Assembly: GCF_900537175.1 (NCBI RefSeq)
Contig: NZ_LS999835.1
Coordinates: forward strand, 316,001 to 380,000
Origin: Lentilitoribacter sp. Alg239-R112
Lineage (GTDB): Bacteria > Pseudomonadota > Alphaproteobacteria > Rhizobiales > Rhizobiaceae
Reading direction: 5' to 3'
Length of the DNA: 64,000 nt
The notes under the pieces are model-generated. The model did no database searches, had not been told where the DNA came from, and was given only the letters and a program-made list of their open reading frames with translations. How positions within the stretch are numbered: the stretch's first letter is position 1; the number at the start of each line of letters is the position of its first letter. Below are positions 1,955 to 8,683 of the stretch, one piece after another. Position numbers and translations under genes: made by a program.

Positions 1955-4900
1955 TCAAAGGTCGATTTCTATAGTGGTATCTGCTTTGGCCGCACGAGAT
2001 TGACATAAAATAATAGCGTCTTTTCGTTGTTTTTTTGACAGTACAAAATCTCTGTGCTCGACCTCTCCACTAATCAGGCCACATTTACAAACACCGCAAA
2101 TTCCGTCTGAACATTTCACATCCACATTTATGCCGTTCTGAGCAAGAATATCTGTTACAGATTTATCCGTCGGAATATCAAGTTCTCGCCCACTTTTTGC
2201 TAATTTTACCTTGAATGGATAGTTCTCATATTCTGGTAATTCGGGGACATTGAAATATTCAATATGCTGTTCTTCTTCATTAAAGCCAGCACGTTCTGCC
2301 GCCTCTATGACGGACTTCATATAAGGCTCAGGCCCGCAAGTATACACATGATCACCGGTTTGGTATCCACCCAAAATTTCATTCAGGTCTGCGCGAGTAT
2401 GTTCGTCGCTAAAGTGCAGTTTCACTTTCTCGTGCCAAGGAAATTGTGCAAGGTCTTCTAAGAAGCCAGCATTTGCGCGAGATGAACATGAATAATGCAC
2501 AGCGAAGTTTGCCCCAATGGTATGTAGACGATGAGCCATTGCGATCATCGGCGTGATGCCAATGCCGCCGCCCATTAAGAATGTTTTTCGAGCTGTTTCA
2601 TCAAGTGGAAAATGGTTGATGGGTTTTGAGATAAATATCTTGCGTCCTTTGGTGAAAATACGATGTAAAAGCTGTGAGCCACCTCGACCCTGGTCTTCTC
2701 GCAACACGCCAATTTGGTATTTGCTTCTATCAGTTGGGTCGCCCGACATGGAATATTGGCGCAGGAACTCTGGTGCGACCACGATGTCCAGATGTGCGCC
2801 TGCTTGCCATTCCGGAAGCGGTGATCCATCCAATGTTGAAAATTCGTACTTGGTGATACCTTGGCTCATTTGTACGGCTTTTGTGATCTCCACTCGGATT
2901 ACCGGTGCGTCCCCCTCAATTTTATATTCATGTGCCAAACCATACGTATCGCCTTGCGCAAGGCGCGTTTTATACTGCTTGGCGGTAATCATGGCTTGAT
3001 AGGCTTCTATCCCCTTTTCTCGATCCATTGGAAACGGAAATGGCCAAGGATGAGGGGCAAGATTAGCAGGATAGACTGCCAGTGTTTGATCTTTGAACTT
3101 GAGATCCAGATTCTTTTGAAGATCGCGCTCATTTACCTGATGTCGGGTGGGGCGATAGGCGCCATCATCCTGAATTTCGAGATCCCACCACCATTTTTTG
3201 ATTACATTGCGTTCACCATTACCCACGGCATCATCCAATTTTGCAAGCATGGGTGCAGCTTTTGGAATGTTCATTGCGGCCCAACGAAACGGAGCTTCAG
3301 CAAAAATACCTTCGAGGTTCCAGGGGCAGGTTTTCATGCAACGACCGCACATTGCCCCACCTAGGTTTGTGATGCGATAGGTCGTGCATTTTTGGCTATC
3401 GGATTTCCAAGTTTCATAACCATTGAACATCAATTTTGGCCCAGCGGTAATGGCCCCAGACGGGCATTCGCGCGCGCATTTGTTGCAGCTTTCGCAGAAC
3501 TGTTGCAACCCAAATGAAATTGGTTTGTCATGCGTCATTGGCATATTGGTGGTAACAACGCCTGACTTCAAACGTGGGCCAAGGAATGGATTGAGAATAA
3601 CTTCGCCAATCCGGCTAACTTCGCCAAGGCCGGAGAGTAGCAAAAGCGGCGGTTGGAGCACCTCTCCGTCCATAACTGTATGCGCTTTTGCTTTATAACC
3701 AAGGCGTCGAATTTGCTTGGCAACAATGCTGCCCAAAATAGAAAAACGCAAATAGGCACGCATTGATTGAGATACAGCGATCCAGTCATCTCCTGAGGCG
3801 CCCTCCATGGTCTCGTAGCCTTGATCAATAACCATTGAAATGGCTTGATCATGTGGTGGGGTGATTGGTTCACCCGTGGCATCGTGTGAATACCAGGTCC
3901 ATTCAGGACATCGCGAAATCCCTGTTGCATCAACACCTAAGAAATACGACATAGCTTTAATGTTTTCAGCATTGCGCAATGCATTGGCGGTTTCATTTGT
4001 TTGGGTGGGATTAGGTCGCCCGTCCTGAAGCAAAACAAACGCACCAAGTGCTCGCCGTTGTGCCATCGAGGGGGCTGATTTTCGCACATATTGCCCGTTG
4101 CGTGACGCGTTTTGATTGCGTTTTCCCATGTCGCCAAATAACGAGCGCGCAAACATATCGGTGCGTTTCGGGACGCGAGGAACACGGCTTTCGTCGATGT
4201 AGGTCGTAGGGTGTTCAACCCGCTTTAGCGTTTCAAATGGATGCGCACCATCCACAAAACGCCGTTTTGCATAGGGGTCAATATTTCGGGCGCTTTTGGC
4301 GGTGCCTACCCCCCATTGCCACGCAAAGCCATGTGTTTTGGATCTCGGTTGATCCTTTAAAGGGACCAGAGGTTTATCATGAGAAAACTCAAATTCTGTT
4401 GTTACCACTGCAATGGAAAAGTCTTGACCTAAATAGGGATTAACCAGTTCATCACCTTCAATTGTTGCAAGCCCTGAAGCGGCGGCTAAATGATGAAGAT
4501 CTATATCTGTTGTTGTATGGCTGTGCGCGCGCGCATCATAACCCAATAAGCGGATATATTGCGCAAGTACAACCGCAAGTTCCATGGCGCGCAATGCTGA
4601 ACGTGCTGGCCCTGCGCCCTTCAACCATGTGTTTCCCGGTTCCTCATCGCGAACTTCACGCGGATGTTCGACAACAAAAACAAGTGCATGTTTGTGACTA
4701 TCCATGCTTTTTGGTGGTGCATTCATCGCATCACGTAGGTCTGCCATAATGACATCAATACCCGATGCCAGAGACTTCGTTTGATCTGTACGTAATTTCT
4801 GCGCTAGAGCATCTATATCGGGATTGTGACACGAATTTTTCAACATCATTTGAGGTGTGAAAGCGCAAGTCGCAGACATCGCTACATCTGAAAAATATCC

Positions 4901-5170
4901 AAATGCTTTGAGATGATTGGCACGTTCATCAAGATCGTCGGGAACGGTCGCCTGGGCTTTGTTTATCAAGCCATCGCGAATGGCATCCAGCATGGCTTGC
5001 GCCTCGCCCATAGCATTGACAATATTTTCCGGATTTTTTTCATCCAGAAAGCGCATTTGCTCGAATTTGGGAAGGTTGGCTATGTTCGAAATATTGTTGG
5101 TACGTGATAGGCGCTCCAATGGGTAGGGGCCAAGGTGTACAGGACGTTTTTTATCAGAAAAATATTTCAA
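1955..5170 (-). CDS. Self-sufficient reductive-dehalogenase-like protein (RdhA domain fused to flavin/NAD/[2Fe-2S] reductase)
   Basis: A 1071-residue fusion. Residues 1 to about 550 are a corrinoid-binding reductive dehalogenase (RdhA) region starting with HLGPYPLERL. Two [4Fe-4S] sets follow: C559, C562, C565, C569 and C595, C608, C611, C615. From about 755 comes a phthalate-dioxygenase-reductase-type module: flavin motif RQYS (804-807), GGGIGITP (867-874), CGPEPYM (945-951), and a plant-type [2Fe-2S] site with C1020, C1025, C1028 and C1056. There is no twin-arginine signal and no RdhB anchor, so it is probably cytoplasmic. This is the architecture of BhbA of Comamonas sp. 7D-2, an NADPH-dependent debrominase of 3,5-dibromo-4-hydroxybenzoate; NpRdhA of Nitratireductor pacificus is a related catabolic enzyme. 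Expected reaction: reductive replacement of aromatic halogen by hydrogen, using NAD(P)H. The start is TTG with AGAGGA upstream. Tyr427 and Lys493/Lys495 are my guesses for catalytic residues. Substrate unproven. Confidence 0.9.
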   Translation of the reverse strand: MKYFSDKKRPVHLGPYPLERLSRTNNISNIANLPKFEQMRFLDEKNPENIVNAMGEAQAMLDAIRDGLINKAQATVPDDLDERANHLKAFGYFSDVAMSATCAFTPQMMLKNSCHNPDIDALAQKLRTDQTKSLASGIDVIMADLRDAMNAPPKSMDSHKHALVFVVEHPREVRDEEPGNTWLKGAGPARSALRAMELAVVLAQYIRLLGYDARAHSHTTTDIDLHHLAAASGLATIEGDELVNPYLGQDFSIAVVTTEFEFSHDKPLVPLKDQPRSKTHGFAWQWGVGTAKSARNIDPYAKRRFVDGAHPFETLKRVEHPTTYIDESRVPRVPKRTDMFARSLFGDMGKRNQNASRNGQYVRKSAPSMAQRRALGAFVLLQDGRPNPTQTNETANALRNAENIKAMSYFLGVDATGISRCPEWTWYSHDATGEPITPPHDQAISMVIDQGYETMEGASGDDWIAVSQSMRAYLRFSILGSIVAKQIRRLGYKAKAHTVMDGEVLQPPLLLLSGLGEVSRIGEVILNPFLGPRLKSGVVTTNMPMTHDKPISFGLQQFCESCNKCARECPSGAITAGPKLMFNGYETWKSDSQKCTTYRITNLGGAMCGRCMKTCPWNLEGIFAEAPFRWAAMNIPKAAPMLAKLDDAVGNGERNVIKKWWWDLEIQDDGAYRPTRHQVNERDLQKNLDLKFKDQTLAVYPANLAPHPWPFPFPMDREKGIEAYQAMITAKQYKTRLAQGDTYGLAHEYKIEGDAPVIRVEITKAVQMSQGITKYEFSTLDGSPLPEWQAGAHLDIVVAPEFLRQYSMSGDPTDRSKYQIGVLREDQGRGGSQLLHRIFTKGRKIFISKPINHFPLDETARKTFLMGGGIGITPMIAMAHRLHTIGANFAVHYSCSSRANAGFLEDLAQFPWHEKVKLHFSDEHTRADLNEILGGYQTGDHVYTCGPEPYMKSVIEAAERAGFNEEEQHIEYFNVPELPEYENYPFKVKLAKSGRELDIPTDKSVTDILAQNGINVDVKCSDGICGVCKCGLISGEVEHRDFVLSKKQRKDAIILCQSRAAKADTTIEIDL

Positions 5171-5198
5171 GTTCCAAATTCCTCTAGATGCTAATCAG

Positions 5199-5648
5199 TT
5201 ACAGACGCATCAGATTAACGTTTTCACCTTCTGTCATTTTGTCGATTGCCGCCATCAATATGTCAAAGGTTTCTGGGTCAAGTTTATCTGTAAAATGCCC
5301 GTTTAGTTCTCGGACCAATACATGGCATGTTTTCATTTTTTCAATGCCTAACTCTGTAAGTGTAACTTCAGTGAGCCGTTTGTCACCTTCAATACCGCTT
5401 CGTTCCACATATCCGCGTTTTTCCATATCCTTTAACAGACGCGATATGGCGGGCCTTGCTATGCATATATATTCGGCAAGGCCTGAAGGTGTGTTTACAT
5501 TTTCCATGCCTGCTCCGCGCAATACACACCACATTAAACGGGTAACACCATGTTGTGACAATTGTTTTTCAAGCCTTGCTTCCATAATTCGGGCTAAAAG
5601 TGTGACTTTAAAACCAACGCGATTATGCAATGTGAATTCTTCAGACAA
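5199..5648 (-). CDS. MarR-family transcriptional regulator
   Basis: A 149-residue winged-helix protein. The recognition-helix and wing region (ARPAISRLLKDMEKRGYVER, then GDKRLTEVTLTELG) is typical of MarR proteins, which bind palindromes as dimers and are usually released by small aromatic or carboxylic ligands. The start is TTG, placed 6 bases after GGAGGG. The stop lies 28 bases before the dehalogenase-like gene on the same strand, so marR and rdhA form a likely operon, while the TRAP operon diverges. A 26-base palindrome in the shared upstream region is the obvious operator candidate. Control of both operons by this protein is inferred from position. Confidence 0.9.
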   Translation of the reverse strand: MSEEFTLHNRVGFKVTLLARIMEARLEKQLSQHGVTRLMWCVLRGAGMENVNTPSGLAEYICIARPAISRLLKDMEKRGYVERSGIEGDKRLTEVTLTELGIEKMKTCHVLVRELNGHFTDKLDPETFDILMAAIDKMTEGENVNLMRL

Positions 5649-5669
5649 TACAGCCCTCCAGCAAATTAG

Positions 5670-5699
5670 TTGACTTACACCATAGCCTATAGTTTTATA
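5670..5699 (+). promoter_or_regulatory. Candidate sigma70 promoter of the TRAP operon
   Basis: TTGACT is followed after 18 bases by TTTATA, a fair match to the -35 and -10 consensus. The expected start of transcription would fall inside the palindrome just downstream. The minus-strand promoter of marR must lie in the same short region, where TATAAA-like stretches are also present. Predicted by eye only. Confidence 0.4.
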
Positions 5700-5702
5700 T
5701 AG

Positions 5703-5728
5703 TTAACATAGATAATTATCTTAGTTAA
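5703..5728. promoter_or_regulatory. Palindromic operator candidate between marR and the TRAP operon
   Basis: A 26-base near-perfect palindrome with outer arms TTAAC/GTTAA and core GATAATTATC; only two base pairs are mismatched. It sits between the divergent marR-rdhA and TRAP operons, just downstream of the plus-strand -10 candidate. That is where a MarR dimer would block transcription. The size suits MarR sites; binding itself is inferred. Confidence 0.6.
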
Positions 5729-5759
5729 GCGTTATTACGCACATTTGGAGGGAGAAAAT

Positions 5760-6779
5760 ATGCGACAGGAATTTAAAGGATTACGCAGTTTTGCAATTTC
5801 AGCTATATCGATGGCTGGTATCATTACAGGTGTTACATTTGCGAATGCAGCTGAGTTAAAAGTTGCTCATTTTATGCCGGCGACGCACCCAATGGACAAA
5901 GGTGTTATGACGCCATTAGCGGAACAATTGAATGAGGCAACAAACGGTGAGCTAACGATCCGAATTTTCCCGTCTGGTGAACTCGGAAAGGGACCAGCCC
6001 AACAATATAAACGTGTTGTGACAGGGGTAGCCGATATTGTTTTTGGTATACCTGAATATACGCCGAAGCGATTTAGTAAAACAGCGATGGTGCATTTACC
6101 TGGATTATTTCCAGGTGGTGAGGCAGCGACCAATGCACTTTGGGACAATATCGATCTTCTTGCAGATGAATACGAAAAAACAAAGCTGCTCGGTTTGTGG
6201 GCAAACAACCCATCTGTATTAATTACGCGCGATAGGGCTGTGCGTACAGTTGCAGACATGCAAGGAATGAAAATTCGAACGCCAAACCCTGTCATGGCAG
6301 ATTTAGTGAAAGCATGGGGTGGTATTCCCGTCTCAATGCCAACAATCGACACATATAACGCGATGAATACGGGTGTCATTGATGCTGTGATGATTGGCCC
6401 ATCAGGCATTCGTTCCTACAAACTTAATGAAACTGCAAAATATGTCACAACCAATATCCCCTCAGCGCTCGATAGTTTTTACCTGTTGATGAATAAATCA
6501 AGCTGGGAAAACCTGAGTGATGAACACAAAGCTGCGTTGGATGGTCTTACAGGTCGAGAATTAAGCTTACGTGGTGCAAAATCTTTCTTTGAAGCTGGAC
6601 AAGCAGGTCTAAAATTGGCGCAAGAAACTGGTTTGGAGCTAATTGAGATCGACGCAGAAGCAGACAAAGAATTCCGAACACAAATGCAAAAAGCATTGGA
6701 TGCATTTGTCGCCAACGTCGGTAGTGAGAAGAATATTGACGCAAGTGCATTAGTTGATGCATTGGCGGGCAAATCATAA
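5760..6779 (+). CDS. TRAP transporter substrate-binding protein (DctP family)
   Basis: A 339-residue periplasmic protein with a signal peptide (hydrophobic stretch, then probable cleavage after ANA at residues 28-30). The body is of the DctP type, with the block GMKIRTPN. Arg173 in this block corresponds to the arginine that clamps the substrate carboxylate in TRAP binding proteins, so a carboxylated ligand is expected. I place the start at the ATG that follows GGAGGGAG; an in-frame TTG 15 bases upstream lies within that Shine-Dalgarno sequence and is unlikely. It is the first gene of a P-Q-M operon divergent from marR-rdhA. A halogenated organic acid is the inferred ligand from context only. 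Confidence 0.93.
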   Translation: MRQEFKGLRSFAISAISMAGIITGVTFANAAELKVAHFMPATHPMDKGVMTPLAEQLNEATNGELTIRIFPSGELGKGPAQQYKRVVTGVADIVFGIPEYTPKRFSKTAMVHLPGLFPGGEAATNALWDNIDLLADEYEKTKLLGLWANNPSVLITRDRAVRTVADMQGMKIRTPNPVMADLVKAWGGIPVSMPTIDTYNAMNTGVIDAVMIGPSGIRSYKLNETAKYVTTNIPSALDSFYLLMNKSSWENLSDEHKAALDGLTGRELSLRGAKSFFEAGQAGLKLAQETGLELIEIDAEADKEFRTQMQKALDAFVANVGSEKNIDASALVDALAGKS

Positions 6780-7274
6780 GTGTCCGGTGAAAAATTAAGT
6801 TCAGCTGCTGAAGGAGTGGCTGGCTGGCGCAACTGGATCGAGGTGCCGTTGGTAATCGGCGGTGCCTTGATTGTATTTGGGCTTATGGGGCTATCCGTGA
6901 CAGATGCACTTTTGCGATCATTTCTCAACATGCCCATCTTCGGTGCGAATGATTACGCCCAAATACTTTTATCCTTTTTGGTTTCCATTAGTTTACCGCT
7001 GTGTGTCTTAGCTGGCCGACTAATTGCAATAGATACATTAAAAGCGATGGCCCCCGCAAAACTGCAAAAAACCTTGGACTGGATTATATCAATTTGCGGC
7101 TTCACGATGCTTAGTTATCTTGCGTGGCGTGCATTTTCCAATGCATTGGATGCCGCTGACTTTGGTGAAGCAACGCTCTTATTGCAGCTGCCCTTCGGTC
7201 CATCCTATTACGCTGTAGCAATTGGCTGCACTTTTGCAGCACTTATGCTTTTGCTAGAGAGATTATTGCCATGA
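6780..7274 (+). CDS. TRAP transporter small permease subunit (DctQ family)
   Basis: A 164-residue inner-membrane protein with four hydrophobic segments and the length usual for DctQ. It begins with GTG directly after the stop of the binding-protein gene, with no clear ribosome site of its own, which points to translational coupling. Its stop overlaps the start of the large permease gene (ATGA). DctQ supports DctM in sodium-driven secondary uptake. Sequence alone is weak for this family; position between P and M genes makes the call secure. Confidence 0.9.
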   Translation: MSGEKLSSAAEGVAGWRNWIEVPLVIGGALIVFGLMGLSVTDALLRSFLNMPIFGANDYAQILLSFLVSISLPLCVLAGRLIAIDTLKAMAPAKLQKTLDWIISICGFTMLSYLAWRAFSNALDAADFGEATLLLQLPFGPSYYAVAIGCTFAALMLLLERLLP

Positions 7275-8575
7275 GCCCGGAAATATATGGCATTCTAGGA
7301 TTTGCGGCCTTATTCATGTTTTTGGCTATAGGTGTGCCGGTTGCGGTGTCGTTGCTCATAGTGGGATTTGTTGGCACAATCTTTTTGTCGGGCTTTCAAG
7401 CTGCGGCATTCACGTTAAGTGGGCAAGCCTTTGCCACGGTTACAGTTTATCAATTGACCATCATTCCCCTTTTTATTCTTATGGGAAACCTTGCCTCCAC
7501 AGCTGGTCTTAGTCGGGATTTATTTGAAGCGGCACACAAAATTGTTGGGCACCTACGTGGTGGGTTAGCTGCAGCAACCATTGTAGGCTGTGCAGGATTT
7601 GCGGCGCTATCAGGCTCCTCTATCGCTTCAGCGATAACCATGGGTAAGGTTGCCTATCCAGAAATGAAGCGGTTTAATTATGGAGCGCGGCTTGCAACCG
7701 GTTCAATAGCTGCCGGCGGGACGCTCGGTATTCTCATTCCGCCATCTACGGGGTTTGTGATCTATGCTGTTCTCACAGAAGAATCCATTGGCCGACTCTT
7801 CATGGCAGGAGTCATTCCAGGTCTACTGCTGACAACAATGTTTCTCATTGCAATTGCAATTGTGACTTTTATCTGGCCTAGCGAAGGGCCACGTGGTCCA
7901 AATTTTACAATGAGGGAGAAGATACGAAGTTTATTCCGCGCTACAGGAATTGCTATCATTATCCTGATCACGATTGGTGGAATCTACACTGGGTTCTTCA
8001 CCCCAGTTGAAGCCGCAGGTGTTGGCGCATTCTTTGCTTTAATTATGCTTATTTTACGTGGGAAGTGTACATTTAAAAACCTCTACCATGTGAGTGCTGA
8101 GACACTTAAAACGACGGGTATGGCATTTTTTATTTTGGTCGGTGCAAATGTATTTGCCCCTTTTGTTGCTTTGTCTCACCTACCAACAACAATAGCTGGC
8201 ACAGTGACAGGTTTTGAACTTGGAACATATGGTACATTAGCCATCATTCTTTTTGGTTACATTATTTTGGGTATGTTCATTGAAGGCTTATCTTTATTGG
8301 TCATCACCCTCCCAATTGTGTTCCCGCTCGTGACGGGTATGGGTTTTGATCCGATTTGGCTCGGTGTTGTTATGGTCATTGTTTTGGAAATGGGACTTAT
8401 TTCACCGCCTGTGGGGGTAAATGTTTTCATTGTTAAAAGCGTTGTGCCTGACGTAAAAATTGAAACAATTTTTGCTGGCATCATGCCATTTTGGTTAGCT
8501 ATGATCGCGACATTAGCCCTCATAGTCGTATTTCCACAAATTGCGCTTCTACTGCCAAATGCGATGTATAACTAA
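7271..8575 (+). CDS. TRAP transporter large permease subunit (DctM family)
   Basis: A 434-residue inner-membrane protein with about twelve hydrophobic segments. Typical DctM blocks are present: AALSGSSIASAITMGKVAYPEM, GTLGILIPPST (about 157-167) and the late GLISPPVGVNVFIVK. It forms the ion-coupled channel of the TRAP system and acts with the binding protein and DctQ subunit encoded just upstream. It overlaps dctQ by four bases. The transporter set is complete, and no gene is broken. It is the last gene before a tRNA-Leu on the opposite strand; I see no clear terminator in the 23 bases between them. Confidence 0.95.
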   Translation: MSPEIYGILGFAALFMFLAIGVPVAVSLLIVGFVGTIFLSGFQAAAFTLSGQAFATVTVYQLTIIPLFILMGNLASTAGLSRDLFEAAHKIVGHLRGGLAAATIVGCAGFAALSGSSIASAITMGKVAYPEMKRFNYGARLATGSIAAGGTLGILIPPSTGFVIYAVLTEESIGRLFMAGVIPGLLLTTMFLIAIAIVTFIWPSEGPRGPNFTMREKIRSLFRATGIAIIILITIGGIYTGFFTPVEAAGVGAFFALIMLILRGKCTFKNLYHVSAETLKTTGMAFFILVGANVFAPFVALSHLPTTIAGTVTGFELGTYGTLAIILFGYIILGMFIEGLSLLVITLPIVFPLVTGMGFDPIWLGVVMVIVLEMGLISPPVGVNVFIVKSVVPDVKIETIFAGIMPFWLAMIATLALIVVFPQIALLLPNAMYN

Positions 8576-8598: not shown

Positions 8599-8683
8599 TG
8601 GTACCTCCCGCCGGAATCGAACCGGCACTCCGTGAGGAATTGGATTTTGAATCCAACGCGTCTACCAGTTCCGCCAGGGAGGC
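8599..8683 (-). tRNA. tRNA-Leu (anticodon CAA)
   Basis: An 85-base class II tRNA with encoded CCA. The acceptor arms are GCCTCCC and GGGAGGT with one G-U pair, followed by discriminator A. The anticodon stem TTGGA/TCCAA encloses the loop TTCAAAA, giving anticodon CAA, which reads UUG. A variable arm (CTC/GAG) and the T arm GGTTCGATTCC are visible. Its 3' end faces the TRAP operon. Confidence 0.96.

Follow-up and report, generated by a model that had tools for sequence, protein, structure and literature searches.

The sea is rich in bromophenolic compounds, and fused RdhAs occur widely among marine bacteria; to our knowledge, the natural substrates of these marine enzymes are not known. The fused enzyme BhbA of Comamonas sp. 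7D-2, encoded on plasmid pBHB, is associated with anchoring by BhbB. Putative bhbA homologues have been noted across the Roseobacter clade (PMC13101508). JtRdhA, from Jhaorihella thermophila, is active under aerobic conditions and accepts ortho-phenols that are brominated or iodinated but not chlorinated; its best substrate is 3,5-dibromo-4-hydroxybenzoate, 3-bromo-4-hydroxyphenylacetate is converted at 99% of the best rate and 2-iodophenol is also a substrate (PMC10463259). In NpRdhA, K488, R552 and S422 lie at the substrate hydroxyl and Y426 is placed for proton donation (PMC7565698).

We analysed a locus of Lentilitoribacter sp. Alg239-R112, contained in a stretch of 64,000 nucleotides (hereafter the window), in which genes for an RdhA and a MarR-family regulator face a TRAP transporter operon (Table 1). 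All five genes, rdhA, marR and dctPQM, were found where the first-pass annotation had placed them, and this gene content is far beyond chance. MarR, DctP, DctQ and DctM each exceeded their Pfam cut-offs. The rdhA start codon is TTG, with AGAGGA 5' of it. A protein fusion of marR and rdhA is ruled out, since these are two separate genes on the same strand with 28 bp between them, marR being upstream; the words 'marR-rdhA fusion' in the title of that annotation were an error, and the true fusion is that of RdhA with a reductase. Two AhpD-like, peroxidase-related proteins are encoded on the forward strand (679-1287 and 1321-1887), tail to tail with rdhA, and a homologue 77% identical to the first of them lies downstream of the RdhA on an Aminobacter plasmid (L057). 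Our preferred reading, to which we assign a probability of roughly 0.7, is that the locus is an import-and-dehalogenate cassette for a halogenated hydroxyaromatic carboxylate.

Table 1. Features of the candidate import-and-dehalogenate locus, in window positions.
Feature	Position	Strand	Remarks
rdhA (RdhA fused to FMN/NAD(P)H/[2Fe-2S] reductase domain, self-sufficient catabolic type)	1955..5170	-	1071 aa
marR (MarR-family regulator)	5199..5648	-	Pfam match over cut-off
Possible dctPQM promoter, TTGACT-N17-TTTTAT	5670..5698	+	read by eye
28-bp imperfect palindrome	5702..5729		22/28 positions symmetric; marR/dctP divergent gap
dctP (TRAP substrate-binding protein, TarP-like, aromatic acids predicted)	5745..6779	+	
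dctQ (TRAP small permease)	6780..7274	+	
dctM (TRAP large permease)	7271..8575	+	
tRNA-Leu(caa)	8599-8683	-	24 bp after dctM

RdhA residues 157-739 matched the NpRdhA structure 4ras (E 5.6e-160 for the whole protein) and residues 758-1068 matched phthalate dioxygenase reductase 2pia (E 1.6e-55), while TIGR02486 scored 190.4 bits against a cut-off of 160.35. Three sets of cluster cysteines are present (C559/C562/C565/C569, C595/C608/C611/C615 and C1020/C1025/C1028/C1056). These matches and the 12 cysteines bear out the earlier description of a corrinoid region with two [4Fe-4S] sets, fused to a C-terminal flavin/NAD/[2Fe-2S] reductase. In an alignment to NpRdhA, residues F291, S422, M423, Y426, K488 and R552 of that enzyme correspond to F340, S469, M470, Y473, K535 and R599. 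Together with the 12 cluster cysteines, these six residues are conserved in all 59 fused rows (58 distinct sequences, as the window was entered twice); the four fused rows that are short or broken (L035, L039, L040 and L060) were excluded. No twin-arginine motif was seen on inspection of the N-terminus by eye, as the first-pass annotation had also maintained for a TAT signal, and among ORFs of at least 90 aa none fit to be RdhB directly adjoins rdhA. The non-respiratory, catabolic architecture is supported, with its active-site residues conserved. Oxygen tolerance of this RdhA is plausible by analogy, since JtRdhA works aerobically (PMC10463259). It could be argued that the protein is a corrinoid reductase of the family acting on a non-halogenated substrate: the substrate is not legible from sequence, TIGR00276 gave 26 bits on RdhA against 200, and the wider class includes the epoxyqueuosine reductases, which do not dehalogenate (PMC10463259). 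The complete set of NpRdhA phenol-binding and proton-donor residues and the close kinship to tested ortho-halophenol dehalogenases make this highly improbable.

The protein search identified 3396 RdhA relatives among 8000 candidates scored, and the best 120 of these were 68-98% identical and nearly all full length. A scan of genome contigs yielded 42 loci, each 60-77% identical in its best segment; these were mostly alphaproteobacterial records, with four Granulosicoccaceae records, one Granulosicoccus record and one Acidimicrobiales MAG. An RdhA tree was built from 60 rows after removal of 5 short ones and 3 duplicates, with BhbA included and JtRdhA not. In it the window RdhA fell inside the fused catabolic clade, in which BhbA and pOM-1 were sister to the rest; the tree that the earlier annotation had called for thus places it among the catabolic enzymes. 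The enzyme belongs to a known class and is unremarkable within it. The Granulosicoccaceae RdhAs (L012, L020, L032 and L042) took separate positions among alphaproteobacterial RdhAs, a pattern suggestive of horizontal transfer or of mixed MAG bins.

Gene neighbourhoods were compared at 62 fused-RdhA loci (68 loci minus 3 duplicates and the 3 non-fused loci L069-L071). In 10 of these 62, rdhA has beside it a TRAP of the window type (DctM identity of 55% or more); among loci with more than 2.2 kb upstream the count is 10/56. Six loci (the window, L002, L003, L057, L068 and L110) have layout A, with marR followed by rdhA and the TRAP divergent; the other four (L004, L012, L032 and L060) have layout B, in which the TRAP precedes a co-oriented rdhA; the gap to rdhA is 15, 93 and 18 bp in L004, L012 and L032, and the gap to the match is about 16 bp in L060. 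The RdhA of L060 (8938-12205, Yoonia plasmid pSS15unnamed1) is unannotated and lies in two ORFs, owing to a broken gene or a sequencing error. The first-pass annotation had proposed that the pairing with TRAP and MarR genes may define a locus type. The pairing does recur, but at this frequency it represents one locus type among several. Weaker TRAP relatives (23-39%) occur near rdhA in six further loci (L001, L016, L025, L034, L063 and L114). Upstream of rdhA in L063 and L114, 86-169 bp away and in the same orientation, a gene encodes a distant DctP-like protein (27%), which may represent an additional type of RdhA-linked importer. We found no description of an import-regulation-dehalogenation cassette in our searches of the open-licence PMC literature; what is new is that an enzyme of a known kind is recurrently paired with an importer and a regulator.

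Layout-A flanks were compared over 2.5-9 kb on each side, as far as the contigs extend (blastp E 1e-15). They have in common the first AhpD-like protein (window and L057) and ABC ATPases (~26-29%), and the remaining common ORFs listed are antisense to or overlap the cassette. The flanks are otherwise unlike, with histidine-utilisation genes in L110, an efflux adaptor in L002 and a phosphoesterase and a NUDIX protein in L068, the flank genes of these three loci being named only in part. No gene for product use beyond the five cassette genes was common to the layout-A flanks at this threshold.

On the DctM tree the layout-A sequences form one clade (support 89/87) that branches into L057 plus L068, then L110, then L002, L003 and the window. 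The RdhA tree resembles this branching in outline, with L057 and L068 basal and apart from the other four layout-A loci and with many TRAP-less loci interspersed among the layout-A RdhAs. Layout A is not one clade on the RdhA tree, where it takes 2 changes, a number equally low in 139 of 500 shuffles. Among the layout-B TRAPs, those of L004, L012 and L060 cluster with TRAPs found away from RdhA, and that of L032 is sister to layout A. A single origin for the RdhA-linked TRAPs, with layouts A, B and pOM-1 as one clade, was rejected (p-AU 0.0002). Judging from these sequence trees, TRAPs have been joined to RdhA more than once.

The absence of a TRAP of this type from 52 of the 62 fused-RdhA loci counts against the cassette reading. 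Together with the lack of a common catabolic gene, the AhpD-like, peroxidase-related genes that adjoin the cassette (two here, one in L057) and the acceptance of 2-iodophenol by JtRdhA (PMC10463259), it would suit an RdhA that detoxifies diffusing neutral halophenols beside a TRAP for a plain aromatic acid, both under the control of one regulator. We regard such a division of labour as decidedly unlikely: the repeated joining of TRAP and RdhA and the close spacing of layout B, in which 15-93 bp separate the TRAP from a co-oriented rdhA, argue for a common substrate.

The TRAP of the locus looks like an aromatic-acid importer, which narrows the earlier claim of uptake. The structure model of DctP (pLDDT 89.6) has the TRAP binding-protein fold, and 10 of its 11 best structural matches by Z are titled TarP or aromatic-acid binding proteins, although the fold alone shows no ligand. 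DctP R178, invariant in 34 aligned sequences, aligns with an Arg in 4p56, 5im2 and 7nr2, and we take it to be the conserved carboxylate-binding arginine of TRAP binding proteins. Five of the seven TRAP relatives inspected away from RdhA are close to aromatic-acid catabolic genes. Among 297 genomes of the order, RdhA was detected at 1e-100 or better in 22 and DctP relatives at 1e-40 or better in 51; DctP of at least 50% identity occurred in two (G000 and G315), adjoining RdhA in both. Ten of 120 DctP clusters share a contig with an RdhA cluster (matched by length of the longest contig; offset control 0.15), a count that is evidence of a common contig and not of adjacency.

MarR carries a winged-helix domain (PF01047 and PF12802 over cut-off), and the palindrome is the likely MarR operator. 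The palindrome pattern, which was derived from these sites, has its sole match in the window there, with 0 expected. With a leave-one-out matrix the gap site ranked first in 4/4 close loci (the window, L002, L003 and L110) at 27.4-31.4 bits, and the next non-overlapping sites in those loci were below 9 bits. Elsewhere the matrix gave 21.5 bits in L117, 17.0 in L040, 16.7 in L057 and 8.2 in L068. The L040 match lies inside an ORF and was taken as chance; the palindrome is weak in L068 and also in L057, at a level similar to that chance match. The L117 match falls within a called ORF, immediately ahead of the position at which marR presumably starts. The spacing of the possible dctPQM promoter is kept in L002 and L003 and not in L110, and a promoter consensus scan selected a different weak pair (5674-5703) that was no better than shuffles.

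In a narrower version of this reading, the substrate might be a brominated 4-hydroxybenzoate, as for BhbA, with 4-hydroxybenzoate as the product; we consider this possible, if on the unlikely side. BhbA and the pOM-1 RdhA (47-49% identical) are found together with ring-cleavage genes, and pOM-1 also has pobA and a related TRAP close by. In L031, L064 and L066 the distance from RdhA to PobA-like genes is at most about 9 kb, and JtRdhA prefers 3,5-dibromo-4-hydroxybenzoate (PMC10463259). As a product, however, 4-hydroxybenzoate fits the content of this genome poorly: PobA gave weak matches only (best 34.3 bits against a cut-off of 538.7), and PcaH and LigB had no match. HppD, HmgA and an aromatic transaminase are over cut-off on the cassette contig; PaaA, PaaK and PaaZ of this genome likewise exceed their NCBIfam cut-offs, and PaaE falls just short. 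HppD, HmgA and the phenylacetyl-CoA genes suit an acid of the hydroxyphenylacetate or tyrosine type no less well, and the 99% relative rate of JtRdhA on 3-bromo-4-hydroxyphenylacetate points the same way (PMC10463259). The pocket-wall residues, which are unlike those of NpRdhA, BhbA and pOM-1, do not decide the matter. They were rejected as a substrate guide, since L031, L064 and L066, near their pobA-like genes, have the commonest pocket pattern (27 rows) and the pocket therefore does not separate substrates.

A phenylacetyl-CoA degradation cluster lies left of the window on the same contig, C3 (L081 7949-17841 and L062 68-4787), 5-20 kb from rdhA; its paa names other than PaaA, PaaK and PaaZ were assigned by eye. 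A tie between the cassette and these genes was rejected: over the 2.5-9 kb of flank compared they are not shared at blastp E 1e-15 by the other five layout-A loci, and their proximity is therefore taken as incidental. Tyrosine/homogentisate genes (L147 5332-11991, C3:255332-261991) are about 56 kb from rdhA, the transaminase, hppD and hmgA being over cut-off and fahA and maiA named by eye. On contig C1 (L144 7552-15008) a second TRAP occurs together with a FAD monooxygenase (NF006002 over cut-off) and a possible VOC-type dioxygenase, perhaps another aromatic cluster. CobN is present in the genome. PF13486 had no match in this genome nor in the controls, and is hence uninformative.

The tRNA-Leu gene is a synteny breakpoint relative to three congeners. 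DNA similarity with G002 begins at the tRNA end (window 8597), where the G001 and G003 contigs start; C3:290001-309000 has one 57-base match across the three congeners, and the left flank of G002 has no match to C3:250001-380000 except the tRNA end. RdhA searches of the congeners gave only reductase-type or weak matches, two of these genomes being 82 and 87% complete. From this comparison, the cassette lies in strain-variable DNA. An integrative element with a duplicated tRNA end was rejected, the 20-base tRNA 3' end being single in the genome with 2 mismatches allowed; this genome search found no att repeat.

In the preferred import-and-dehalogenate reading, MarR bound to the palindrome would control the divergent dctPQM and marR-rdhA units. 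Periplasmic DctP would capture a halogenated hydroxyaromatic carboxylate for import by DctQM. In the cytoplasm, electrons from NAD(P)H would pass through FMN and the [2Fe-2S] cluster of the C-terminal domain to the two [4Fe-4S] clusters and on to cobalamin, which would remove bromide or iodide ortho to the phenolic OH; S469, K535 and R599 would hold the phenol, with Y473 and K535 as proton donors. The dehalogenated acid would enter whatever aromatic pathway the host has. More tentatively, and at somewhat less than even odds, the locus may be a mobile, self-contained five-gene cassette that adds use of halogenated acids to users of the plain acids, its TRAP being a TarP-like sub-clade that has specialised in halogenated hydroxyaromatic acids and serves as a dedicated organohalide importer under its own MarR operator; as TRAPs appear to have been recruited more than once, part of marine aerobic dehalogenation could then be organised around uptake. 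A nameable importer, regulator and operator offer three independent routes to the natural RdhA substrate, and the cassette would be a compact genetic unit for halogen removal under air.

Compared with known systems, the RdhA of this locus resembles JtRdhA, likewise an RdhA-reductase fusion, which is described as self-sufficient and NADPH-driven and in which F291, S422, M423, Y426, K488 and R552 (NpRdhA numbering) are also conserved (PMC10463259). NpRdhA of Nitratireductor pacificus (4ras, 6zxu and 6zy0) has the same corrinoid and [4Fe-4S] core and catalytic residues, but it is without the fused reductase and its pocket walls differ at 290, 310, 311, 419 and 452. BhbA has the full-length fused architecture at 47.2% identity, but belongs to a separate lineage together with pOM-1. 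The genes around it encode LigA, an extradiol dioxygenase and a binding protein of the tripartite-tricarboxylate type, and no TRAP or MarR is listed in the stretch shown, in PLSDB gene tables that are incomplete. The TarP structures 7nr2, 7nra, 7nrr, 7nsw, 7ntd and 7nqg are 21-27% identical to DctP; coumarate, cinnamate, caffeate, ferulate and 4-hydroxyphenylacetate are the ligands, and the titles name no halogenated one. That DctP shares only 21-28% identity with TarP structures counts against the cassette reading. On the regulatory side, BhbR2 is, like the regulator here, a MarR protein, in its case for a 3-bromo-4-hydroxybenzoate operon; it activates and binds TTGATT-N5-AATCAA, from which the palindrome of this locus differs (PMC12016517). 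Rdh2R is likewise a MarR regulator, in its case of rdh genes (PMC6299228).
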